This document shows positions 45,683 to 62,842 of a stretch of 64,000 nucleotides of DNA, one piece after another. The position numbers were made by a program, and so were the translations under genes. Under the pieces are notes generated by a model, which was not told where the DNA came from, made no database searches, and saw only the letters and a program-made list of their open reading frames with translations. The stretch is from Sulfolobales archaeon (GTDB lineage Archaea; Thermoproteota; Thermoprotei_A; Sulfolobales; Desulfurococcaceae). Location of the stretch: contig JANXDZ010000002.1 in the NCBI GenBank assembly GCA_025059075.1, positions 62,001 to 126,000 of the forward strand, read 5' to 3'. The number at the start of each line of letters is the position of its first letter. The first letter of the stretch is position 1.

Positions 45683-46654
45683 CTACCTCTTATAGAGCCA
45701 GCATGAGACTAAGTGGTCTTTAGAATACTCCACTAGCTCAGGCTCTTTATTACAGAGCTGAAGTTTGTGTGGACACCTAGGATTGAATCTACATCCCTCA
45801 GGTAAGTCAATCATGTTTGGAACGCTTCCATGAATAGATCTTAGGCGCTCAACTTTCCTCAGGGGATTTGGTACAGCTTCAAGAAGCCCCTGTGTATATG
45901 GATGAAGTGGGTTTGTAAACAGCTCTTCAACTAATGCTACTTCAACTATTTTACCAGCATACATGACTATAACTCTATCACATACTTCAGCTACTACTCC
46001 AAGGTTATGAGTTATTAGCATTACTGATGAATTATACTTATTCTTAAGGCTCCTTATTAACTCCATGACTTGAGCTTGAACAGTTACATCAAGTGCAGTA
46101 GTAGGCTCATCGGCTATAATGAGCTTTGGAGTATTTGCTATAGCTGTAGCTATGACCACTCTTTGCTTCATCCCTCCGCTCAACTCATGTGGATAACTCT
46201 TTGCTTTAGCTTCAGGATCTGGAATGAGTACTTCACGGAAGATCCTTATTGCCTTCCCCCACACTTCATTAAACTTCATTGAGGAGTTATGTGTTAGAAC
46301 TGTTTCAGCAACATGGAAGCCAGCAGTATAAAGGGGATCTAGTACACTGCCCGGATCTTGGTATACATACGATATCTCTCTCCCCCTAATTTTCTTCAAT
46401 TCCTTCTCGGGTAGTTTAAGTAAGTCTATACCGTCAAATAGTACTTCGCCACTGACTATTCTGCCCGGAGGCTTCACCATTCTAGTAAGAGCTCTAGACA
46501 TAACTGATTTTCCACAGCCAGTTTCTCCAACAATGCAGAGTATTTCTCCTTTACGCACACTAAATGATACTCCGTCAACGGCTCTCACTACTCCAGCATA
46601 TGTATAGAAATAAACCCTTAGATCCCTTACCTCAAGGAGTGTGTTTAAATACAC
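45683..46654 (-). CDS. Opp/Dpp ABC transporter ATPase D, operon 1
   Basis: A 323-residue peptide-importer ATPase. GETGCGKSV serves as Walker A, with the signature LSGGMKQRVVIATAI, Walker B IIADEPTTALD and C-terminal GCRFNPRCPHKLQLC. The D-type C-terminal Cys cluster can bind an Fe-S cluster in relatives. One base separates it from the permease gene upstream. Confidence 0.93.
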   Translation of the reverse strand: MYLNTLLEVRDLRVYFYTYAGVVRAVDGVSFSVRKGEILCIVGETGCGKSVMSRALTRMVKPPGRIVSGEVLFDGIDLLKLPEKELKKIRGREISYVYQDPGSVLDPLYTAGFHVAETVLTHNSSMKFNEVWGKAIRIFREVLIPDPEAKAKSYPHELSGGMKQRVVIATAIANTPKLIIADEPTTALDVTVQAQVMELIRSLKNKYNSSVMLITHNLGVVAEVCDRVIVMYAGKIVEVALVEELFTNPLHPYTQGLLEAVPNPLRKVERLRSIHGSVPNMIDLPEGCRFNPRCPHKLQLCNKEPELVEYSKDHLVSCWLYKR

Positions 46655-46655
46655 T

Positions 46656-47597
46656 TTACTTCACCTCTCTAAACTCAAGTCTCCTCCTAAACCTTGGATC
46701 AAGTATATCCCTTAAGCCGTCGCCCAGGATGTTGAAGCCGAGTACTGTAATCAGTATGGCTAGCCCTGGGAAAAACGAATACCACCACTTATCTGGAAAC
46801 CACTTTCTTCCATCAGCTACTAGCCTACCCCACTCTGGTGTAGGGGGCTGAGCTCCAAGGCCTATGAACGATAGTGCTGAGCTAGCTAGTATTACTGATC
46901 CAAAGTCAAGTGTTACTAGAACTAGCAGTGGAGTTATTGAATTAGGCAGTATGTGTTTAAAGAGTATTCTCCGCGTGCTTACACCCATAGCCTTAGCTGC
47001 CTCAATGAATAACTGCTCTCTTACTACAAGCACTTGTGCTCTAACAACTCTAACGTAACTCGGCCACCAGACTATCGATAGAGCTAGCATTGCTGAGAAA
47101 AGCCCTGCACCTAAAGTAGCGCTGAAAGCTATTGCAAGCACTAAGCCTGGGAACGATAGAAATACGTCTGTAACCCTCATGATTATTTCATCAATTACTC
47201 CACCATAGTAGCCAGCAACTAGACCTAACACTAAGCCTACTGGTATAGCTATAGACATAACTGCCATAGACACCATTAATGAAACTCTAGCGCCAGCTAG
47301 AACTCTGCTAAATAAATCTCTCCCATATTCATCAGTTCCAAAGGGATGCTGTAAGCTGGGTGGTTGAAGCCTCTTTAATGCAATTGAGCTAAAGTCTATT
47401 TCAATAGGATTGTATGGAGCAATGTATGGTCCTATAGCTCCAAGAACTATGAATCCTACTACTATGATTAAACCAGTCATAGTTAGCGGGCTTCTCTTAA
47501 TGACTTCGAAAGCCAGCCTCCAGTCGTAAATTATTGACCCAACGGATCTAAGTGCGTTGCTCTTTAACAACACTCTATTGAACTTCTTTAGCATCAT
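46656..47597 (-). CDS. Opp/Dpp permease C, operon 1
   Basis: A 313-residue inner permease with a short cytoplasmic N-terminus, then about six helices. It has the DppC landmark HPFGTDEYGRDLFSRVLAG near residue 80 and the EAA coupling loop FIEAAKAMGVSTRRILFKH near 197. Its start overlaps the permease B stop by four bases. It forms the channel with permease B. Confidence 0.93.
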   Translation of the reverse strand: MMLKKFNRVLLKSNALRSVGSIIYDWRLAFEVIKRSPLTMTGLIIVVGFIVLGAIGPYIAPYNPIEIDFSSIALKRLQPPSLQHPFGTDEYGRDLFSRVLAGARVSLMVSMAVMSIAIPVGLVLGLVAGYYGGVIDEIIMRVTDVFLSFPGLVLAIAFSATLGAGLFSAMLALSIVWWPSYVRVVRAQVLVVREQLFIEAAKAMGVSTRRILFKHILPNSITPLLVLVTLDFGSVILASSALSFIGLGAQPPTPEWGRLVADGRKWFPDKWWYSFFPGLAILITVLGFNILGDGLRDILDPRFRRRLEFREVK

Positions 47598-48577
47598 AGC
47601 CTCACCCTAGGGTCAATAATGGCGTACGCTATATCAACAATGAAATTTACAGCTATGAATATTAGGCTTATGAGCAGCGTTGAACCCATTATCGCTGGGT
47701 AGTCAAGGCTATTAATGGCGTTCACAGCGTATAGCCCTATGCCAGGCCATGAAAATACTGTTTCTATAACTATAGCTCCACTGAGGAGCATGCCGAACTC
47801 TAGGCCAGCTATCGTAACTATTGGTATTGACGAGTTCTTTACAACGTGCCTGTAGAACTTAGCACCACTTAAACCTCTTGCTTCAGCGAAATCCATGAAC
47901 TCTGACGATAGTACATCAAGTGTAGTGTTTCTAACAACTCTCGCTATGATTCCTAGGCCTGTGAAAGCTAGAGTAAGGCTTGGTAGAGCTATGTGCCTTA
48001 AGTTTATTACTAGAGCATTCCAGTCTCCTGTAAGTAAGCTGTCGAATATGTATAGACCTGTATAAGTCTGTGATGGCGGAATTCCTCTGCTTGTAGCTGG
48101 AAGTAGCCCGAGGGAGTAGTAGAAGATCCATTGTAAAGCTATTGCTAGCCAAAAAGCCGGCGCTGAAACCCCTATTAACGCTAACACTCTTATTAAGTGA
48201 TCTACTGGAGTATCCCTCTTTAATGCAGCTAGAAGTCCAAGAGGAATGCCTAAAGCTATCTGTATTAACCCAGCTACTATAGCTAACTCAGCTGTAGCTG
48301 GAAAGTATTCAGCTAAATCCACTAGCACCGGCCTCTTAGTCATAGGGGACTCCCTCCAATTCCCTGTAAACACATCCCTAATGTAGAGAACTAATTGCTC
48401 GTGAATAGGTAGATTTAAGTGATACTTCTCCCTCATTAATTCAATTATCTCAGGCCTAGCCTTCACTCCCCCAGCCCAAAGCCTAGCGGGATCAGCTGGA
48501 ATCACGTGACTTATTACAAATGTCAATATGAGTACTCCAACTATAGTTGGGATAAACGTAAGAGCTCTTCTAATCAA
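47594..48577 (-). CDS. Opp/Dpp permease B, operon 1
   Basis: A 327-residue permease of the DppB type: ALTFIPTIVGVLILTFVISH helix, IPADPARLW, FPATAELAIVAGLIQI, EAA loop FMDFAEARGLSGAKFYRHVV, and the terminal RVL segment DPRVRL. It is the second gene of the operon, 130 bases after the binding-protein gene; that gap probably holds an internal promoter or mRNA processing site. Confidence 0.93.
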   Translation of the reverse strand: MIRRALTFIPTIVGVLILTFVISHVIPADPARLWAGGVKARPEIIELMREKYHLNLPIHEQLVLYIRDVFTGNWRESPMTKRPVLVDLAEYFPATAELAIVAGLIQIALGIPLGLLAALKRDTPVDHLIRVLALIGVSAPAFWLAIALQWIFYYSLGLLPATSRGIPPSQTYTGLYIFDSLLTGDWNALVINLRHIALPSLTLAFTGLGIIARVVRNTTLDVLSSEFMDFAEARGLSGAKFYRHVVKNSSIPIVTIAGLEFGMLLSGAIVIETVFSWPGIGLYAVNAINSLDYPAIMGSTLLISLIFIAVNFIVDIAYAIIDPRVRL

Positions 48578-48707: not shown

Positions 48708-50711
48708 CTAGCTCCTCTTCTCACCAACTATTATGAGTACATCCCCTAAAGTTATTTGAACAGCATTAGATAAGTCTACGAACTGTGCTGCTTCATTAAT
48801 TGACGACACTACGTCTACTTTAACTGAGCTAAATCTATATCCACCAGCCTGCAGAGGACCTGCGTAATCATCTGGATCAGCGTAGTCAGGCCCCCAGGCT
48901 AGTACTTGTACATCGAAGTCTCCACTGGATAACTTTTCATTAAATACAGGCCTTGACAATACTTGTACTTTAACGCTTATGCCAAGCACTTGGCTCCACG
49001 ATGCTTGAACTAGTGTAGCTATTTGTTCAAGTTCACTGTAGCCCTGGGGGACTATTATAGTTATGTCAACGTTCCGCGGATCTATTCCTGAAGCTGCAAG
49101 GAGTTCTTGAGCTTTAGTGGGATTAAATGTGTACTTTACTAAATCACTGTCCTGGTAGCCAAACATCCCTCTAGGTATGACTCCATAGGCTTGTTCAGCA
49201 AGGTTGTTGAATGCAGCTGATATTATTGAATCATAAGGCACAGCCCATGCTAATGCTTTTCTAAATAAATTATTGTTAAATGGTGGTTTCTCACAGTTGA
49301 GGGTTAAGTGATATAACCAGAATGATGGAGCTATTTCAATAATTAACTTGTTTGCACCAATAGATACTCCCCTGACTTGTTCAACTAGAGTTGGTGGAAC
49401 TAGAGCCATGTCTAAGTCCCCTTTCTTAAGCTCCATTATCCTAGTGGAGTCCTCAGGTATTAGCTTAATCAATACTTCTTCTATGGATGGCTTTCCACGC
49501 CAGTAGTGTGGATTAGCCCTCAGCTTATAGTACTGCTTATGCACCCATTCAACTAAGTAGTATGGTCCAGTGCCTACTGGATGGTCATACATGTACTCGT
49601 TTTCCTTACCTGCTTCAACACCTCCATGGGCTTCAACAACCTCCTTACTGACTATGCTGGCGGGAACTGTTGCTAAAACTTGGAGTATGGCTGCATATGG
49701 TGAGTATAGTTTTAGCTTAACGAATCCAGCTATTTTCCCAGTGTAGTTAAAGAATCTTAGTAACTCACTGAGTGAGTGAACTACTGCACTTCTCCCTTTA
49801 AATTCAGTCTTTAACCCCGTGGAAGCTATGGCTGAAAACTCCTCCTGACTTATGGTCTTTGATTTCTCAACATCTATGAAGGTATCTATAAGCCACGATG
49901 GATCTAAGTGCATTACAGCTACTCTTCTAAGAGAGTACACTACGTCTTCAGGCGTTAATGGAATAGTTCTATTACTCCATGGGTCATAGAAGCTCACTCC
50001 ACCCCTAATTACAAAGTACCACTCATCTCCAGCATCGTTATGTGCCCAAGCAACTGCTAAGCATGGGATAACGTAGTCTGTTCTATCTAATTCATATGTG
50101 ACGAGCCTTTCATATATTTGATGCAATATGAACCAGTCGAAGCCCCAGTAAGTTACAGCTGGATCTAAGCTATGTCCTTCCTCTGATTCACCTATTACTA
50201 GTACTGTTGGGTTAGGTGAATTGGGGTCTTTGCGTAAGTCATCGATTCTATATACTAATGTTGGATGGAAGTATATGCCTTTAATCCAATCCCAATAAAC
50301 TCTTACTTCTCTAGCCTGAACAACCCATATTAACGACAGTCTATCGTTAGAGAGTTTTTGAATAGCTCCATATATAATCCTCCTTAAATCAGCGTCCGTG
50401 GTATATCTCCCAGCTTGAATTAATGCTTCCATAATTGGATCTCTTAGAAAGCCTGGGTTTATGTTTGAGTATGGAACTAGATCTGCTCTATCTATAGGGC
50501 TTGGATCATCGTATGATACAACAATTACTTTACTAAAGACTACTGGAGTAGTAGGCGTAGTAGTTGGAGTAGTGGTAGGAGTAGTTGGAGTAGCTTCAGG
50601 CCTCCTACTTAAGTTACTGTAGACAAAGAATGCTAAAACTCCAGCAATTAGGAGAATTACTATAATTAATGAAACAACCTTCGTAGAGGCTCCTCTGAAC
50701 ACTCTGAGCAC
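48708..50711 (-). CDS. peptide-binding protein (SBP_bac_5), apparently circularly permuted, operon 1
   Basis: A 667-residue binding protein, long for the family (about 520-600). Residues 12-33 are a membrane anchor and 40-57 a Thr/Pro linker. Residues about 80-152 (YSNINP, ALIQAGRYTTDADLRRIIY, VYWDWIKGIYFHP) look like the end of a normal family-5 domain. The canonical N-terminal start (LVIGESEEGHSLDPAVTYWG) comes only at about 168. The protein stops soon after DPDDYAGPLQAGGY without the usual last segment. It should still bind peptides. GTG start at 50711. Confidence 0.85.
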   Translation of the reverse strand: MLRVFRGASTKVVSLIIVILLIAGVLAFFVYSNLSRRPEATPTTPTTTPTTTPTTPVVFSKVIVVSYDDPSPIDRADLVPYSNINPGFLRDPIMEALIQAGRYTTDADLRRIIYGAIQKLSNDRLSLIWVVQAREVRVYWDWIKGIYFHPTLVYRIDDLRKDPNSPNPTVLVIGESEEGHSLDPAVTYWGFDWFILHQIYERLVTYELDRTDYVIPCLAVAWAHNDAGDEWYFVIRGGVSFYDPWSNRTIPLTPEDVVYSLRRVAVMHLDPSWLIDTFIDVEKSKTISQEEFSAIASTGLKTEFKGRSAVVHSLSELLRFFNYTGKIAGFVKLKLYSPYAAILQVLATVPASIVSKEVVEAHGGVEAGKENEYMYDHPVGTGPYYLVEWVHKQYYKLRANPHYWRGKPSIEEVLIKLIPEDSTRIMELKKGDLDMALVPPTLVEQVRGVSIGANKLIIEIAPSFWLYHLTLNCEKPPFNNNLFRKALAWAVPYDSIISAAFNNLAEQAYGVIPRGMFGYQDSDLVKYTFNPTKAQELLAASGIDPRNVDITIIVPQGYSELEQIATLVQASWSQVLGISVKVQVLSRPVFNEKLSSGDFDVQVLAWGPDYADPDDYAGPLQAGGYRFSSVKVDVVSSINEAAQFVDLSNAVQITLGDVLIIVGEKRS

Positions 50712-57377: not shown

Positions 57378-58364
57378 CTACTTAGTTGAATAGAGCCAGC
57401 ATGAAACTCCATGTCCTTTACTAACGTTTATCCATGGAGCCTCGTCGCTCCTGCATTTATTCATGACGAATGGGCATCTAGTGTGGAATCTACAGCCTGA
57501 GGGGATGTTTATTGGATTAGGTATTTCCCCAACTACTTTCAGCTTCTCAAGAATTCTATTACCTATAGTTGGAACTGATGAAATGAGGGCCTTTGTATAT
57601 GGATGCAAAGGACTATGTATAACTTCCCCTACAGCGCCTTCCTCAACGATCTTGCCTAAGTACATTACTGTCACTCTATCAGCTACAAGCTTGGCTACAG
57701 CCAAGTCGTGAGTTATGAACAACATTGAAAGACCGTATTCCCTCTTAAACTCCTTTAATAACTCAAGTATTGAAGCTCTTAATGATACATCTATCATTGA
57801 AACTGGTTCATCAGCGACCACGAACTTGGGCCTCATTATCATTGCTCTAGCTATTACAATTCTTTGCCTCTGTCCACCGCTTAACTGATGAGGGTATCTC
57901 TCATATATCTCACTAGGGGGGGTTAACCCCACTCTCTCAAGAACTTCAAGAACCTTCTCTTTAGCTTCATCAGCGTTGCATAATCCATTGATTATCAAGG
58001 GTTGTGCCACTTGATCTCCAACCTTAACCCTCGGATCAAGGCTTGCGTAAGGATCCTGAAATATCATTTGCATATGAGGCCTAATCTTTTTCAAAGCTCT
58101 CTTAGATAACTTAGTTAGTTCTATTCCTTCAAACAATATGCTTCCTTCAGTAGGCTTCTCTAATCCTATTAGCATTCTTCCAGTAGTAGTTTTACCTGAA
58201 CCGCTTTCGCCTACTAACGCTAAAGTTTCTCCAAAGCCTATTTCTAAGTTAACTCCATCAACTGCCCTTACATAGAGGCGGCCCTTCATTAACATGACAT
58301 CGGTTATAGTTCTTCTAACGGGGAAGTACTTCTTAAGGCCTTTGGCTATAACAAGGGCTTTCAA
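57378..58364 (-). CDS. Opp/Dpp ABC transporter ATPase F, operon 2
   Basis: A 328-residue peptide-importer ATPase. Walker A GESGSGKTT, signature LSGGQRQRIVIARAM, Walker B FVVADEPVSMID (Val-Ser in place of the usual Thr-Ser and Met-Ile-Asp D-loop) and C-terminal GCRFHTRCPFVMNKC. An extra segment between the start and Walker A (VRRTITDVMLMKGRLYVRAV) is seen in related archaeal F-type ATPases. It starts six bases after the partner ATPase. Confidence 0.93.
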   Translation of the reverse strand: MKALVIAKGLKKYFPVRRTITDVMLMKGRLYVRAVDGVNLEIGFGETLALVGESGSGKTTTGRMLIGLEKPTEGSILFEGIELTKLSKRALKKIRPHMQMIFQDPYASLDPRVKVGDQVAQPLIINGLCNADEAKEKVLEVLERVGLTPPSEIYERYPHQLSGGQRQRIVIARAMIMRPKFVVADEPVSMIDVSLRASILELLKEFKREYGLSMLFITHDLAVAKLVADRVTVMYLGKIVEEGAVGEVIHSPLHPYTKALISSVPTIGNRILEKLKVVGEIPNPINIPSGCRFHTRCPFVMNKCRSDEAPWINVSKGHGVSCWLYSTK

Positions 58365-58370
58365 ATGCTT

Positions 58371-59330
58371 TCACCTCTTTAAGTAAAGCCAGCATGCTAT
58401 ACATCGATCATGCTCGACTATAGTCATTGGAGGACGTTCATTAATGCAAATACTTAGTGCTTGCCTACACCTCGGGTGGAATCTGCAGCCAGGTGAAGGA
58501 TTTCTAAGGTCTGGTGGAAAGCCAGGTATGGATTTAATAGTCTTTGCAGACCATAGATCTGGGACGCTATTCACTAAGCCAGCTGTATATGGATGTAGTG
58601 GTGCATTAATGATGCTGCGCGTATCTCCATATTCAACTATTTCACCAGCATACATTATGGCGATTCTATTAGCCATTTCGGCAGCTAAAGCCACATCGTG
58701 AGTTATAAGCATTATTGAAGCCCCCTTCATTTGGACTTCTTTAAGCAAGTCCATTATTTGATCTTGCACTATTACGTCTAAAGCTGTCGTAGGCTCATCA
58801 GCTATAAGGAGCTCAGGCCTTAAAGCTATTGAAATAGCTATTACAATTCTTTGCCTCTGTCCACCGCTTAACTGATGAGGGTAGTAATTGAGCCTATCTC
58901 TAGGTATATTAACTAATTCAAGTAGCTCTCCTGCTTCCCTAATTGCTTCCTCCCTACCAACTCCTAAGTGTACTTGAATTACTTCAGCTAACTGATCTCC
59001 AACAGTTCTCAAAGGATCTAGGGATGTAAGAGGATCCTGAAATACAAAGCCTATGTGCCTCCCTCTAATGCCTCTCATAGCCTCCTCGTTGAGCTCCATT
59101 AGATCTCTGTTCATGAACTTTACCTTTCCTCCAACAATCCTCCCAGGAGGAGGAACTATCTTTGCAATAGCGTAAGCTAAAGTACTTTTACCAGAGCCGC
59201 TTTCACCTACAATGCCTATCCACTCCCCTGGGAGAACACTCAAGGATACATCGTCAACAGCTCTCACTACTCCAGAAAGAGTATAGAAGTAGACCTTTAA
59301 GTTAACTACTTCGAGCAGTGCATTAGACAC
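58371..59330 (-). CDS. Opp/Dpp ABC transporter ATPase D, operon 2
   Basis: A 319-residue peptide-importer ATPase. GESGSGKST as Walker A, LSGGQRQRIVIAISI signature, LIADEPTTALD Walker B, and the C-terminal GCRFHPRCRQALSIC Cys segment. It lies three bases downstream of permease C, the start of tight coupling. Together with the F-type subunit it forms the ATPase pair of the second peptide importer. Confidence 0.93.
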   Translation of the reverse strand: MSNALLEVVNLKVYFYTLSGVVRAVDDVSLSVLPGEWIGIVGESGSGKSTLAYAIAKIVPPPGRIVGGKVKFMNRDLMELNEEAMRGIRGRHIGFVFQDPLTSLDPLRTVGDQLAEVIQVHLGVGREEAIREAGELLELVNIPRDRLNYYPHQLSGGQRQRIVIAISIALRPELLIADEPTTALDVIVQDQIMDLLKEVQMKGASIMLITHDVALAAEMANRIAIMYAGEIVEYGDTRSIINAPLHPYTAGLVNSVPDLWSAKTIKSIPGFPPDLRNPSPGCRFHPRCRQALSICINERPPMTIVEHDRCIACWLYLKR

Positions 59331-59333
59331 AAA

Positions 59334-60194
59334 CTACACCTTTGCAGCTATTGAGAAGTAGTCGCTTAAAGCTTCACCAATTAATGCAAACCCCAGGGAT
59401 AAGGCAATTATCATTAGTCCAGGACACATCGCTATCCACCAATAACCGTTGAGCAAGTGTGGTTGACCGCTTCTAAGGTCAAGGCCCCAGTCAGGGGTTG
59501 GCCAAGTCACTGATAGGCCTAGAAAGCTTAATGCAGCTTCCGTGAGTATAGCGTCTGCAACACTTAAGCTAAAGACTACGAGAACTGTTTGAGTAATGTT
59601 CCTAAATATGCTCTTCAATATAGTTGCATCAGAGCACCCGAGAACAATTAAAGCCTCTATGAATGGCATCTGCTTCACCTTAAGCGTCTCCCCCCTCACC
59701 ATTCTGTAATATGTAGGTACATAAATTACAGCTATTGATATAGCTGCATTAAGTGGACTTGGCCCTAGCACTGCAGCTACAGCTATTGCAAGTATGAGTG
59801 AGGGGAAGGCATAGATACTATCCATAATGATGCTGAGAACTCTATCAACTAGCCCACCGTAGTATCCTGAAATTAAGCCTAGTGGGACTCCAAAAGCCAT
59901 TGATATAGCTGCTGAAACAGCTACTACAAAAAGCACCACTCTAGAGCCCCAGACGACTCTTGAAAAAACATCCATTCCAACGTGGTTTGTCCCCATTAAA
60001 TAATTCCGCGATGGAGGCTGAAGCTCTATGTAAACTCTTGAAGCAGGATCGTGTGGAGCTATGTATGGGGCTAGAATAGCCATAACCACTATGGATATGA
60101 CTATCACTAGCCCTAGGATTAGCATTGACTTAGCTGGCTGTGGAAAGCTCCTTATGAAGGCTGAAATGGGGGTGCTTAGGAAAAGAGTCATCAA
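59334..60194 (-). CDS. Opp/Dpp permease C, operon 2
   Basis: A 286-residue permease with about six helices and the landmarks NYLMGTNHVGMDVFSRVVWG near residue 65, the EAA loop FIEALIVLGCSDATILKSIF near 178 and EAALSFLGLSVTWPTPDWG. It overlaps permease B by four bases. It forms the translocation channel with that subunit. Confidence 0.92.
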   Translation of the reverse strand: MMTLFLSTPISAFIRSFPQPAKSMLILGLVIVISIVVMAILAPYIAPHDPASRVYIELQPPSRNYLMGTNHVGMDVFSRVVWGSRVVLFVVAVSAAISMAFGVPLGLISGYYGGLVDRVLSIIMDSIYAFPSLILAIAVAAVLGPSPLNAAISIAVIYVPTYYRMVRGETLKVKQMPFIEALIVLGCSDATILKSIFRNITQTVLVVFSLSVADAILTEAALSFLGLSVTWPTPDWGLDLRSGQPHLLNGYWWIAMCPGLMIIALSLGFALIGEALSDYFSIAAKV

Positions 60195-61210
60195 TACTTC
60201 ACCCTAGGATCTATTAATGCATATACTATATCAACAATTAAGTTCATTAATCCAACTATGAATGCAAATAGAATTACAGCTCCCTGTATTGAAGAGTAGT
60301 CCCTGTATTCTATTCTTTCATAAATAAATCTCCCTAGCCCCGGCCAGCTAAACGTTGTCTCAGTTAAAACAGCTCCCCCTAGAAGCATTGCTATTTGAAG
60401 CCCCATGTATGTTACTACAGGGATGAAGGCGTTCTTAATAGCATACATAGCTACTCTATGGCCTGGAATGCCCCTAGCTCTATATGCTCTAATGAAGTCT
60501 GAGTTAAGAACTTCAACGAGGTTGTTCCTAATGAGCCTTGTATAAGCTCCGCTTAGCACTATTCCAAGAGTTAAGCTTGGAAGCACTATGTGCCTCAATG
60601 CGTCTGTGAAAGCATTTAAGTCTCCGGCCAATAGGCTATCCAGCAACAGCAATCCAGTAAGCCTAGGTACATAGATCCCTGCGCTTAAGCGCCCACTTAC
60701 GTAGAATAGCTTAAGCTTGAGGCCTAAGAAGTACTGGAGCCCCATTCCGAGGACTGGTATGAATAGAGTATAGGTAAGTATGCTGTAGATCCTCATTGAA
60801 GTATCGAGTCTGCTACCTCTCCTCAACGCACCTCCTACTCCAGTTATAAAACCTATTAATGAAGCAACTATTAATGAAGCTATAGTCAACTCTACTGTAG
60901 CAGGAAGCCTCTCCCATAAGTATTCACTAACGGGCTTACCTATAGGTGATGCAAGAGTTTTACCAAAGTCCCCTCTCAGCATCACGCCGAGGAGATAATC
61001 AAAATACTGTACTAGGATAGGCTTATCAAGGCCGGCCATCCTCCTCATTTCCTCAAGTTGTGCTGGAGGAATATACCTAGTGCCTACAACTGCTAATATA
61101 GGGTCTCCGGGTAGAACTCTAAGCAATATGAATACAAAGGTGTAGAGTATCAGTATTGTGGGAACTATTAACGAAGCTCTAATAACTATGTATCTACCGA
61201 GGCCAGCCAT
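60191..61210 (-). CDS. Opp/Dpp permease B, operon 2
   Basis: A 339-residue permease. It starts with the helix IVIRASLIVPTILILYTFVF, then RVLPGDPILAVVG, LPATVELTIASLIVASLIGF, the EAA loop FIRAYRARGIPGHRVAMYAI and the usual DPRVKY end. It is 66 bases after the binding-protein gene. The family usually begins with a membrane helix at the ATG, as here. Confidence 0.93.
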   Translation of the reverse strand: MAGLGRYIVIRASLIVPTILILYTFVFILLRVLPGDPILAVVGTRYIPPAQLEEMRRMAGLDKPILVQYFDYLLGVMLRGDFGKTLASPIGKPVSEYLWERLPATVELTIASLIVASLIGFITGVGGALRRGSRLDTSMRIYSILTYTLFIPVLGMGLQYFLGLKLKLFYVSGRLSAGIYVPRLTGLLLLDSLLAGDLNAFTDALRHIVLPSLTLGIVLSGAYTRLIRNNLVEVLNSDFIRAYRARGIPGHRVAMYAIKNAFIPVVTYMGLQIAMLLGGAVLTETTFSWPGLGRFIYERIEYRDYSSIQGAVILFAFIVGLMNLIVDIVYALIDPRVKY

Positions 61211-61276
61211 AGCTTACTACCTTAAAACGCCCTTATGTAAAGGGCGTCGAAGAAAACATAGCTTTATTTATACCCC

Positions 61277-62842
61277 CTACTTTCTATAGATAGGCCAGTA
61301 GTACATTAGCATTATGGGGTTAGGCACTACTCCCTCAATGTCTTGTCTGGCAACTATGTGGAGCTTCCCCTGGAATATAGGTATGTATGGAACGTCTTCA
61401 GTTAAATAAGTTCTTTGTACATTTATGTATATCAGTTCTCTCTCAAACTGATCAGTTATTGATGAAGCTTGCTTCAATAATTCATCAACTGTTTCATTAG
61501 CATATCCTGTTCCAGCCCACGCGTTCGCAGTGCTTAGAAGGAATGGAGTTAAGTAATTATCTGGATCTAGATAGTCCGGATACCATCCAAGTAGATATAC
61601 TGGGAGCTGCCCATTCCTAATGTAGCTTACGTACGTAGCCCATTCAGCACTCTTAACTGTGACTTCTATCAGCTCTGTAGCTTCCCACTGCTGCTTTAAT
61701 AGTGCAGCTATATCTTTTTCAGTGTCTCCATAGTGTGTTGGAGTATACCATAGTTCTATAGCTAGCTTATTCTCTTTACTATACCCAGCCTGCATTAGTA
61801 AGTTCTTCGCCATCTCAACATTGTAATCTCCATATTTATCCTTAAATGCATCAACGTGACTCCACATACCTATTGGAACAAGGCTGTATAGAGGGGTTCC
61901 AGCTCCTCTTAACACAACACTTATTATCTCAGTTCTATTAATTGCTGCCGCTAATGCTTGTCTAACAAGTTTATTGTCAAATGGAGGCATCTTAGTGTTT
62001 ATACATATGTACCTTATGAAAGTCCCAGGTACTTCAATTACCTTTAAGTCAGCTTTCTTAGATAGCTCTTCAATGTCTGTTGGCCTAAGAGTCCTCCAAG
62101 CTATGTCTACTTCACCACCCTCAAGAGCCAGCCTTAGGGAAGTGGCATCAGCGTAAAACCTAATCACTATTAATGACTTAGGCTTATCTCCATAGTAGTA
62201 TGGATTTGGCTCAAGAACTATCTCTACATCTCTCTGGAAGCGAGCTATTTTATAAGGCCCTGCTCCACCAGCCGTTTGATCGCTATCAATGCTTTCAGGA
62301 GCATATGCTGAATGCACTGGGAAGTATGGGGGAGTAGCAACTAATGTTAGAAAGAATGGAGTAGGCTGCTTTAGCTTAAACACTACAGTATAATCGTCTA
62401 CAGCCTCAACTTTATCAATGAACTCTGTGACTAGCCACGATGGATCACCCTTTATCGTCATAACTCTATTAATGCTTCTAACAACATCTTCTGCAGTAAG
62501 CAGCGTTCCATCAGCGAACTTCAATCCCTCCCTAAGTTTAAAAGTCCAAGTCATTCCATCACTACTAATACTCCAGCTTTCAGCTAGAGCTGGCTCAAGA
62601 TCTAGTGAGCCAGGCTTATACTTAACTAAGCCCTCCATAACGTTAGATAGCACTTCCCAAGTAAAGAAGTCGTAAGCATTAGAAGGATCTAGATCAGTTA
62701 CCTTATCAGTTACCCCAATAACTATTGGCTTTGGAGCAGCTGGAGCTGGAGCCCTGAAAATAATAAAGTATGCTGCAAGTCCAGCTATTACGACTATTAT
62801 GGCTATCAATATTGCGATAAGAGATCTACTTATGCATTTCAA
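61277..62842 (-). CDS. peptide-binding protein (SBP_bac_5), operon 2
   Basis: A 521-residue binding protein with ordinary domain order. Residues about 7-30 are a signal anchor followed by a short Ala/Pro linker; DKVTDLDPSNAYDFFTWEVL begins the domain, WTFKLREGLKFADGTLLTAE follows near 95, LGWYPDYLDPDNYL near 415, and the last segment ANETVDELLKQASSITDQFE then PYIPIFQGKLH closes it. It captures peptides outside the cell. The start is TTG at 62842, with GGGGGA about eight bases upstream; a TATA element lies near 62.90 kb. Confidence 0.93.
   Translation of the reverse strand: MKCISRSLIAILIAIIVVIAGLAAYFIIFRAPAPAAPKPIVIGVTDKVTDLDPSNAYDFFTWEVLSNVMEGLVKYKPGSLDLEPALAESWSISSDGMTWTFKLREGLKFADGTLLTAEDVVRSINRVMTIKGDPSWLVTEFIDKVEAVDDYTVVFKLKQPTPFFLTLVATPPYFPVHSAYAPESIDSDQTAGGAGPYKIARFQRDVEIVLEPNPYYYGDKPKSLIVIRFYADATSLRLALEGGEVDIAWRTLRPTDIEELSKKADLKVIEVPGTFIRYICINTKMPPFDNKLVRQALAAAINRTEIISVVLRGAGTPLYSLVPIGMWSHVDAFKDKYGDYNVEMAKNLLMQAGYSKENKLAIELWYTPTHYGDTEKDIAALLKQQWEATELIEVTVKSAEWATYVSYIRNGQLPVYLLGWYPDYLDPDNYLTPFLLSTANAWAGTGYANETVDELLKQASSITDQFERELIYINVQRTYLTEDVPYIPIFQGKLHIVARQDIEGVVPNPIMLMYYWPIYRK

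Follow-up and report, generated by a model that had tools for sequence, protein, structure and literature searches.

Natural circular permutations of proteins are usually known as one old pair. Among the binding proteins of ABC importers, TpMglB-2 (Tp0684) has been described as a circularly permuted glucose-binding protein of cluster B, for which a 'Type Ic / Cluster Bc' was proposed and whose authors suggested a link between permutation and tethering (PMC4990184). Permutation by duplication is an established model, known from swaposin and the DNA methyltransferases (PMC3320104). The protein studied here is encoded in a stretch of 64,000 nucleotides from a Sulfolobales archaeon, which is called the window below. 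With the canonical DppA/OppA receptors (cluster C, PF00496) it shares the segments A, B and C, the operon partners and the best sequence and structure matches. In contrast to these receptors, the window protein is rotated, with the anchor before C and not before A, and it carries between B and C an extra insertion of about 70 residues, which is split between its two ends. It resembles TpMglB-2 in being a naturally permuted and probably membrane-tethered binding protein of an ABC importer (PMC4990184), and differs from it in that TpMglB-2 is a sugar receptor of a different fold class, for which the accessible part of the report describes one permutation, without a series of cut sites or a close canonical sister. 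A 'Cluster Bc' assignment of the window protein itself (type I / cluster B fold) was considered and rejected, since its sequence and structure match family 5 / cluster C. As for the duplication model (PMC3320104), the archaeal receptors, taken across their lineages, share with its known cases the predicted tandem intermediate and the rotated products; unlike swaposin and the methyltransferases, they show several rotations, a tandem dimer and a canonical/permuted pair that is 85% identical. No report of permuted family 5 receptors was found in the searchable literature, which omits most subscription journals and the bioRxiv preprints. Permuted ligand-binding proteins are known, and the archaeal family 5 case is a new and unusually rich example of them, where one family offers many rotations, canonical and permuted forms that are closely related, and a tandem dimer. 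Such a series makes the steps and the constraints of permutation (the loops that can be opened, the re-attachment of the anchor) readable and testable.

The window gene (48708..50711, on the minus strand like its parts, the adjacent Opp genes and the second binding protein) begins with a GTG start codon and encodes 667 residues in the order anchor-linker-C-A-B, as established from the open reading frame, Pfam and segment profiles. A hydrophobic N-terminal helix, putatively a signal or anchor, is read directly at residues 12-32 (50616..50678), and a Thr/Pro-rich linker at residues 37-57 (50541..50603). To locate the segments, profiles of A (N-terminal half), B (middle) and C (last ~87 residues) were built from 25 archaeal SBP_bac_5 proteins of canonical order, the A-B-C order being the usual one in SBP_bac_5 and lying outside the Pfam definition. 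The Pfam model SBP_bac_5 (PF00496) scored 253.1 bits, against a cut-off of 32.4, over residues 214-622, and nothing was found ahead of residue 214. Profile A matched residues 168-410, the canonical N-terminal half (49482..50210), and profile B matched residues 412-619 with 136.9 bits, within a middle part delimited as residues 411-620 (48852..49481). Profile C matched residues 91-153 with 14.1 bits (i-E 5e-5), a score modest on its own. The canonical C-terminal segment, now in front at residues 80-160 (50232..50474), reached 20.1 bits with profile C when taken alone, the best of 2000 shuffles being 9.9, and the same place was matched in the orthologues, with 35 bits (1.7e-11) for L010. As the scores of the window protein are modest (14-20 bits), the strength of this support comes from those of the orthologues.

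These results bear out the sequence-only reading, which had recognised the last segment of an SBP_bac_5 domain in residues 80-152 (50256-50474) and the canonical start of the domain from about residue 168. The coordinates of the former hold, with the correction that C proper begins at about residue 80 and that residues 58-79 (50475..50540; strand KVIVVSY and a loop) are the second half of the B-C insertion, according to the alignment of rotated homologues and the strand in the model. The first half of this insertion forms the C-terminal tail, residues 621-667 (48711..48851), which ends with VLIIVGEKRS and was delimited by alignment, model and profile. Between C and A, comparison of the junctions places the family-wide 'KDPNxPNP' at residues 161-167 (50211..50231). 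The same reading had stated that the protein lacks its own last segment at its end, and the true tail scored only 1.8 bits with profile C, so that no second copy of C is supplied by the far C-terminus. The missing segment cannot lie behind the gene either, since the gap from its stop codon to OppB, 130 bp, is too short for it. In the window protein the segment profiles recover C, A and B in this permuted order, each once, where the canonical order of the family would be A-B-C. By segment order, the window protein is a natural circular permutant, with single-copy segments that are rotated with respect to colinear homologues. The second binding protein of the window (61277..62842), proposed as an internal control, indeed has the normal A-B-C order and aligns from end to end with canonical proteins.

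AlphaFold models, for which alignments of the family's own sequences served as inputs, were obtained for the mature window protein (pLDDT 93.7, pTM 0.90) and for a relative with the order B-C-A, or BCA (pLDDT 88.4, pTM 0.87). Segment C (model residues 35-83 in the first and 302-350 in the second) has the same secondary structure in both models: two helices, 12 and 18 residues long, and then a strand of 14 residues. With Foldseek, the best PDB matches of the window model were of the DppA/OppA types, aligned sequentially over ~450-500 columns with a TM to target of up to ~0.7 (~0.69); for the BCA model only ~340-390 columns were aligned, with a TM to target of ~0.5, as expected when the chain order is broken elsewhere. 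The window protein is predicted to have the two-lobed cluster C fold, which would be unchanged by the rotation, with segment C packed as in canonical proteins. The mature protein is modelled as one confident unit and not as a core plus a loose added domain, and an independently folding domain, which the sequence-only reading had named as evidence against its proposal, is not suggested by the model.

Full-length orthologues of the window protein (90%, 65% and 63% identical) have the same C-A-B order, hereafter CAB. Among more distant homologues, whose loci were read, the matches occur in two different orders, C-A-B and B-C-A, the B-C-A protein beginning in the middle of the canonical domain and ending just past the canonical first half. 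When GTDB genomes were scanned with the C-A alignment, 79 loci came up, about 60 of which (L077-L137) are archaeal members of the family. They come mostly from Desulfurococcales, Acidilobaceae and Pyrodictiaceae, the other hosts being Thermofilum, Archaeoglobus, one Thermoplasmata-labelled bin and one Asgard-labelled bin; four bacterial control genomes gave canonical-type matches only. None of the L077-L137 members with enough sequence has the canonical order, and no family open reading frame carries segment C twice according to profile C. Of 398 genomes from the phylum, 39 contain the family; C and A adjoin each other in them unless a contig end cuts the locus, and no canonical-order or tandem member was found in these 398 genomes. 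An open reading frame of 1297 aa in G229 was considered as a dimer and rejected, as it consists of a glycosidase linked through a stretch of N to the receptor. The receptor gene itself is intact, and it is conserved in relatives ranging from 40 to 90% identity. The archaeal survey shows that the rotated order is common to the family and that the C-A join is kept throughout; the sequence-only reading, which envisaged one odd protein, was right about the permutation, but the protein is not alone: the chain ends have shifted repeatedly within its family. Domain models that presuppose the segment order capture such receptors only in part, and these are therefore easily mistaken for truncated or multidomain proteins. 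The single-contig genome G197 contains two receptors of the window family (L177 and L178), one of them BCA and the other CAB, the CAB one having the ends of the window group.

To compare the chain ends, all members were rotated to canonical order and then aligned. The unbroken relatives contain an insertion of ~70 residues between B and C, and it is this insertion that is split in the window protein, with the strand at 58-79 in front and the tail at 621-667 behind. Proteins of the window group (CABw) end after 'VVGEK..' within the insertion; those of Acidilobaceae and Pyrodictiaceae (CABe) end ~20-30 residues earlier, and those of Archaeoglobus L119 and six more Archaeoglobi genomes among L208-L214 (CABa) end near the CABe site. 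Among the BCA proteins the last residue is the same, to within two positions, and follows 'LYGYKP'; the end of L112 lies early in B, and those of L123 and of L220 lie in mid-B. In total the window family shows three cut sites among CAB proteins, the BCA order and two further cuts within B, and the C-A junction is homologous family-wide ('..R.D.L..DPNAPN..'). At least six end positions, all with the same C-A fusion, are counted in this way, as one part of the broader proposal on archaeal receptors made below. Where the ends of permuted members were read, they bear a lipobox or an anchor, the latter as an N-terminal helix or at the C-terminus.

On a tree of 51 family members and 12 canonical outgroups, the 7 states require 7 changes, the minimum being 6. 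A single clade of all CAB proteins was rejected (AU p 2.8e-8), as was a clade of CABe plus CABa (AU p 1.5e-7); CABe alone as a clade was not rejected (AU p 0.39). The CAB order in the window family lacks a single origin, and the ends have moved more than once. L118 (BCA) and L119 (CAB) are 71-78% identical in A, B and C alike, and this similarity in all three segments makes a chimaerism of segments unlikely there. More generally, CAB proteins as segment chimaeras were considered and discarded, the nearest neighbours of A, B and C broadly agreeing in six proteins, with L123 less clear.

Permutation is also found beyond the window family. In Archaeoglobi, L223, L224 and L226 (G427, G433 and G430) have the order b2-C-A-b1, cut in the middle of B, and are nested with strong support among the canonical orthologues L227-L249. 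After rotation, L223 is identical to the canonical L229 at 417 of 488 positions (85%). The lipobox and linker of L223 now stand ahead of mid-B; this anchor and linker were kept in place while the body was rotated, and C and A are joined by 'EEQK', whose resemblance to the canonical linker is suggestive. Since rotated and normal orthologues still share 85% of their residues, the Archaeoglobi permutation appears to be very recent. The order b2-C-A-b1 is present in L222, L225, L254 and L255 as well; L254 and L255 (G1236 and G1124) belong to a different lineage of the same phylum as the Archaeoglobi. L222 and L225 cluster with the window family, and their C-A junction is of the kind found there, so that the C-A fusion may predate the family. 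The genome to which the window belongs also contains, outside the window, L156 (G000:C12:229494-231968), which encodes a 946-aa SBP_bac_5 paralogue with a C-terminal anchor, in which B-C stands ahead of A (hhalign 99.6% and 95.5%); its relative L207 (G044) has the canonical order, and the L156 family is present in 52 of 61 related genomes. Finally, L253 (G1033:C18, open reading frame from base 1810) is an in-frame A-B-C-A-B-C tandem dimer, with an open frame of 1026 aa, one lipobox signal, halves that are 68% identical and Opp homologues within the same 8-kb locus. It represents another archaeal SBP_bac_5 lineage than the window family.

Taken together, these data are best explained as a whole by a tethered Opp receptor that kept its fold while its ends were relocated, most likely by duplication and trimming, and we consider this explanation highly probable. 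The window gene would have been duplicated in tandem and in frame to A-B-C-A-B-C and then trimmed at both ends, whereby the old ends C and A would be joined by a short linker, new ends opened in the B-C loop, and the anchor helix and Thr/Pro linker placed on the new N-terminus. With the anchor in this position, the tether would leave the fold at another place and the peptide cleft should stay unchanged. Repeated moves of the ends would have given the family its several rotations of one fold, tolerated perhaps as the termini have no role other than tethering. L253 has the form of the intermediate that permutation by duplication predicts; for the window family itself, the GTDB loci and the 398 phylum genomes yielded neither a tandem form nor a partly trimmed one. 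The absence of a dimer in the family would also suit a fission-fusion, in which separately encoded halves were rejoined in another order and which likewise yields single-copy rotated genes. We regard this route as unlikely, since no separate genes for A, B or C were noticed in an unsystematic look, the dimer L253 exists in a related protein, and in L223 the anchor and linker in place, the rotated body and the 'EEQK' joint rather recall duplication, although they are only suggestive. In archaea at large, the ends of SBP_bac_5 receptors probably wander, having been permuted independently many times, in five or more places, via trimmed dimers and in one case recently.

It could be argued that residues 80-152 constitute an added domain, or stem from a duplication of part of a C-terminal segment, ahead of a C-terminally truncated and possibly degenerate receptor, as the modest C score of the window protein alone might suggest. 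This view is largely refuted and has very little probability left: in every relative C occurs a single time and the order is rotated, the BCA relatives have the same C straight after B as in canonical proteins, the gene is intact, conserved over 40-90% identity and stays beside Opp genes, and the model is a confident single unit. An assembly artefact is more improbable still; many sequences do come from metagenome bins and L112 rests on one 4.9-kb contig, but the orders recur in genomes of one or few contigs (G014, G022, G021, G076, G124, G197, G439, G452, G427, G1236) as well as in independently assembled genomes from the genus of the window. Each rotation could set the receptor-linker-permease geometry at the archaeal cell surface, in agreement with the lipobox or anchor borne by the permuted members and with the same idea raised by the TpMglB-2 authors for their permuted tethered sugar receptor (PMC4990184). 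Such an adaptive move of the tether seems doubtful, because the cuts are scattered over A|B, three sites within the B-C insertion and two within B, without a tether position shared by all, a scatter which neutral drift explains equally well, and because anchored orthologues of canonical order have survived in the same class as the permuted ones. Whatever its cause, the relocation means that canonical receptors are no safe guide to where the membrane tether sits.

The genes following the permuted receptor encode an OppB-like permease immediately downstream (47594..48577), an OppC-like permease (46656..47597) and an OppD-like ATPase (45683..46654). At most loci that are long enough, homologues of OppB, OppC, OppD and OppF adjoin the receptor gene, usually directly downstream and with any rotation; at some, the Opp genes are found instead upstream, on the opposite strand or at a distance of a few kb. 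Given this neighbourhood, the lipobox or anchor helix and the linker rich in Ser, Thr and Pro, the gene is most naturally read as coding for a tethered peptide receptor, and the window protein is probably a membrane-tethered receptor of an Opp importer with putative peptide binding. At ~7 kb from this first Opp operon, the window holds a second one (57378-62842), whose receptor is the one of canonical order.
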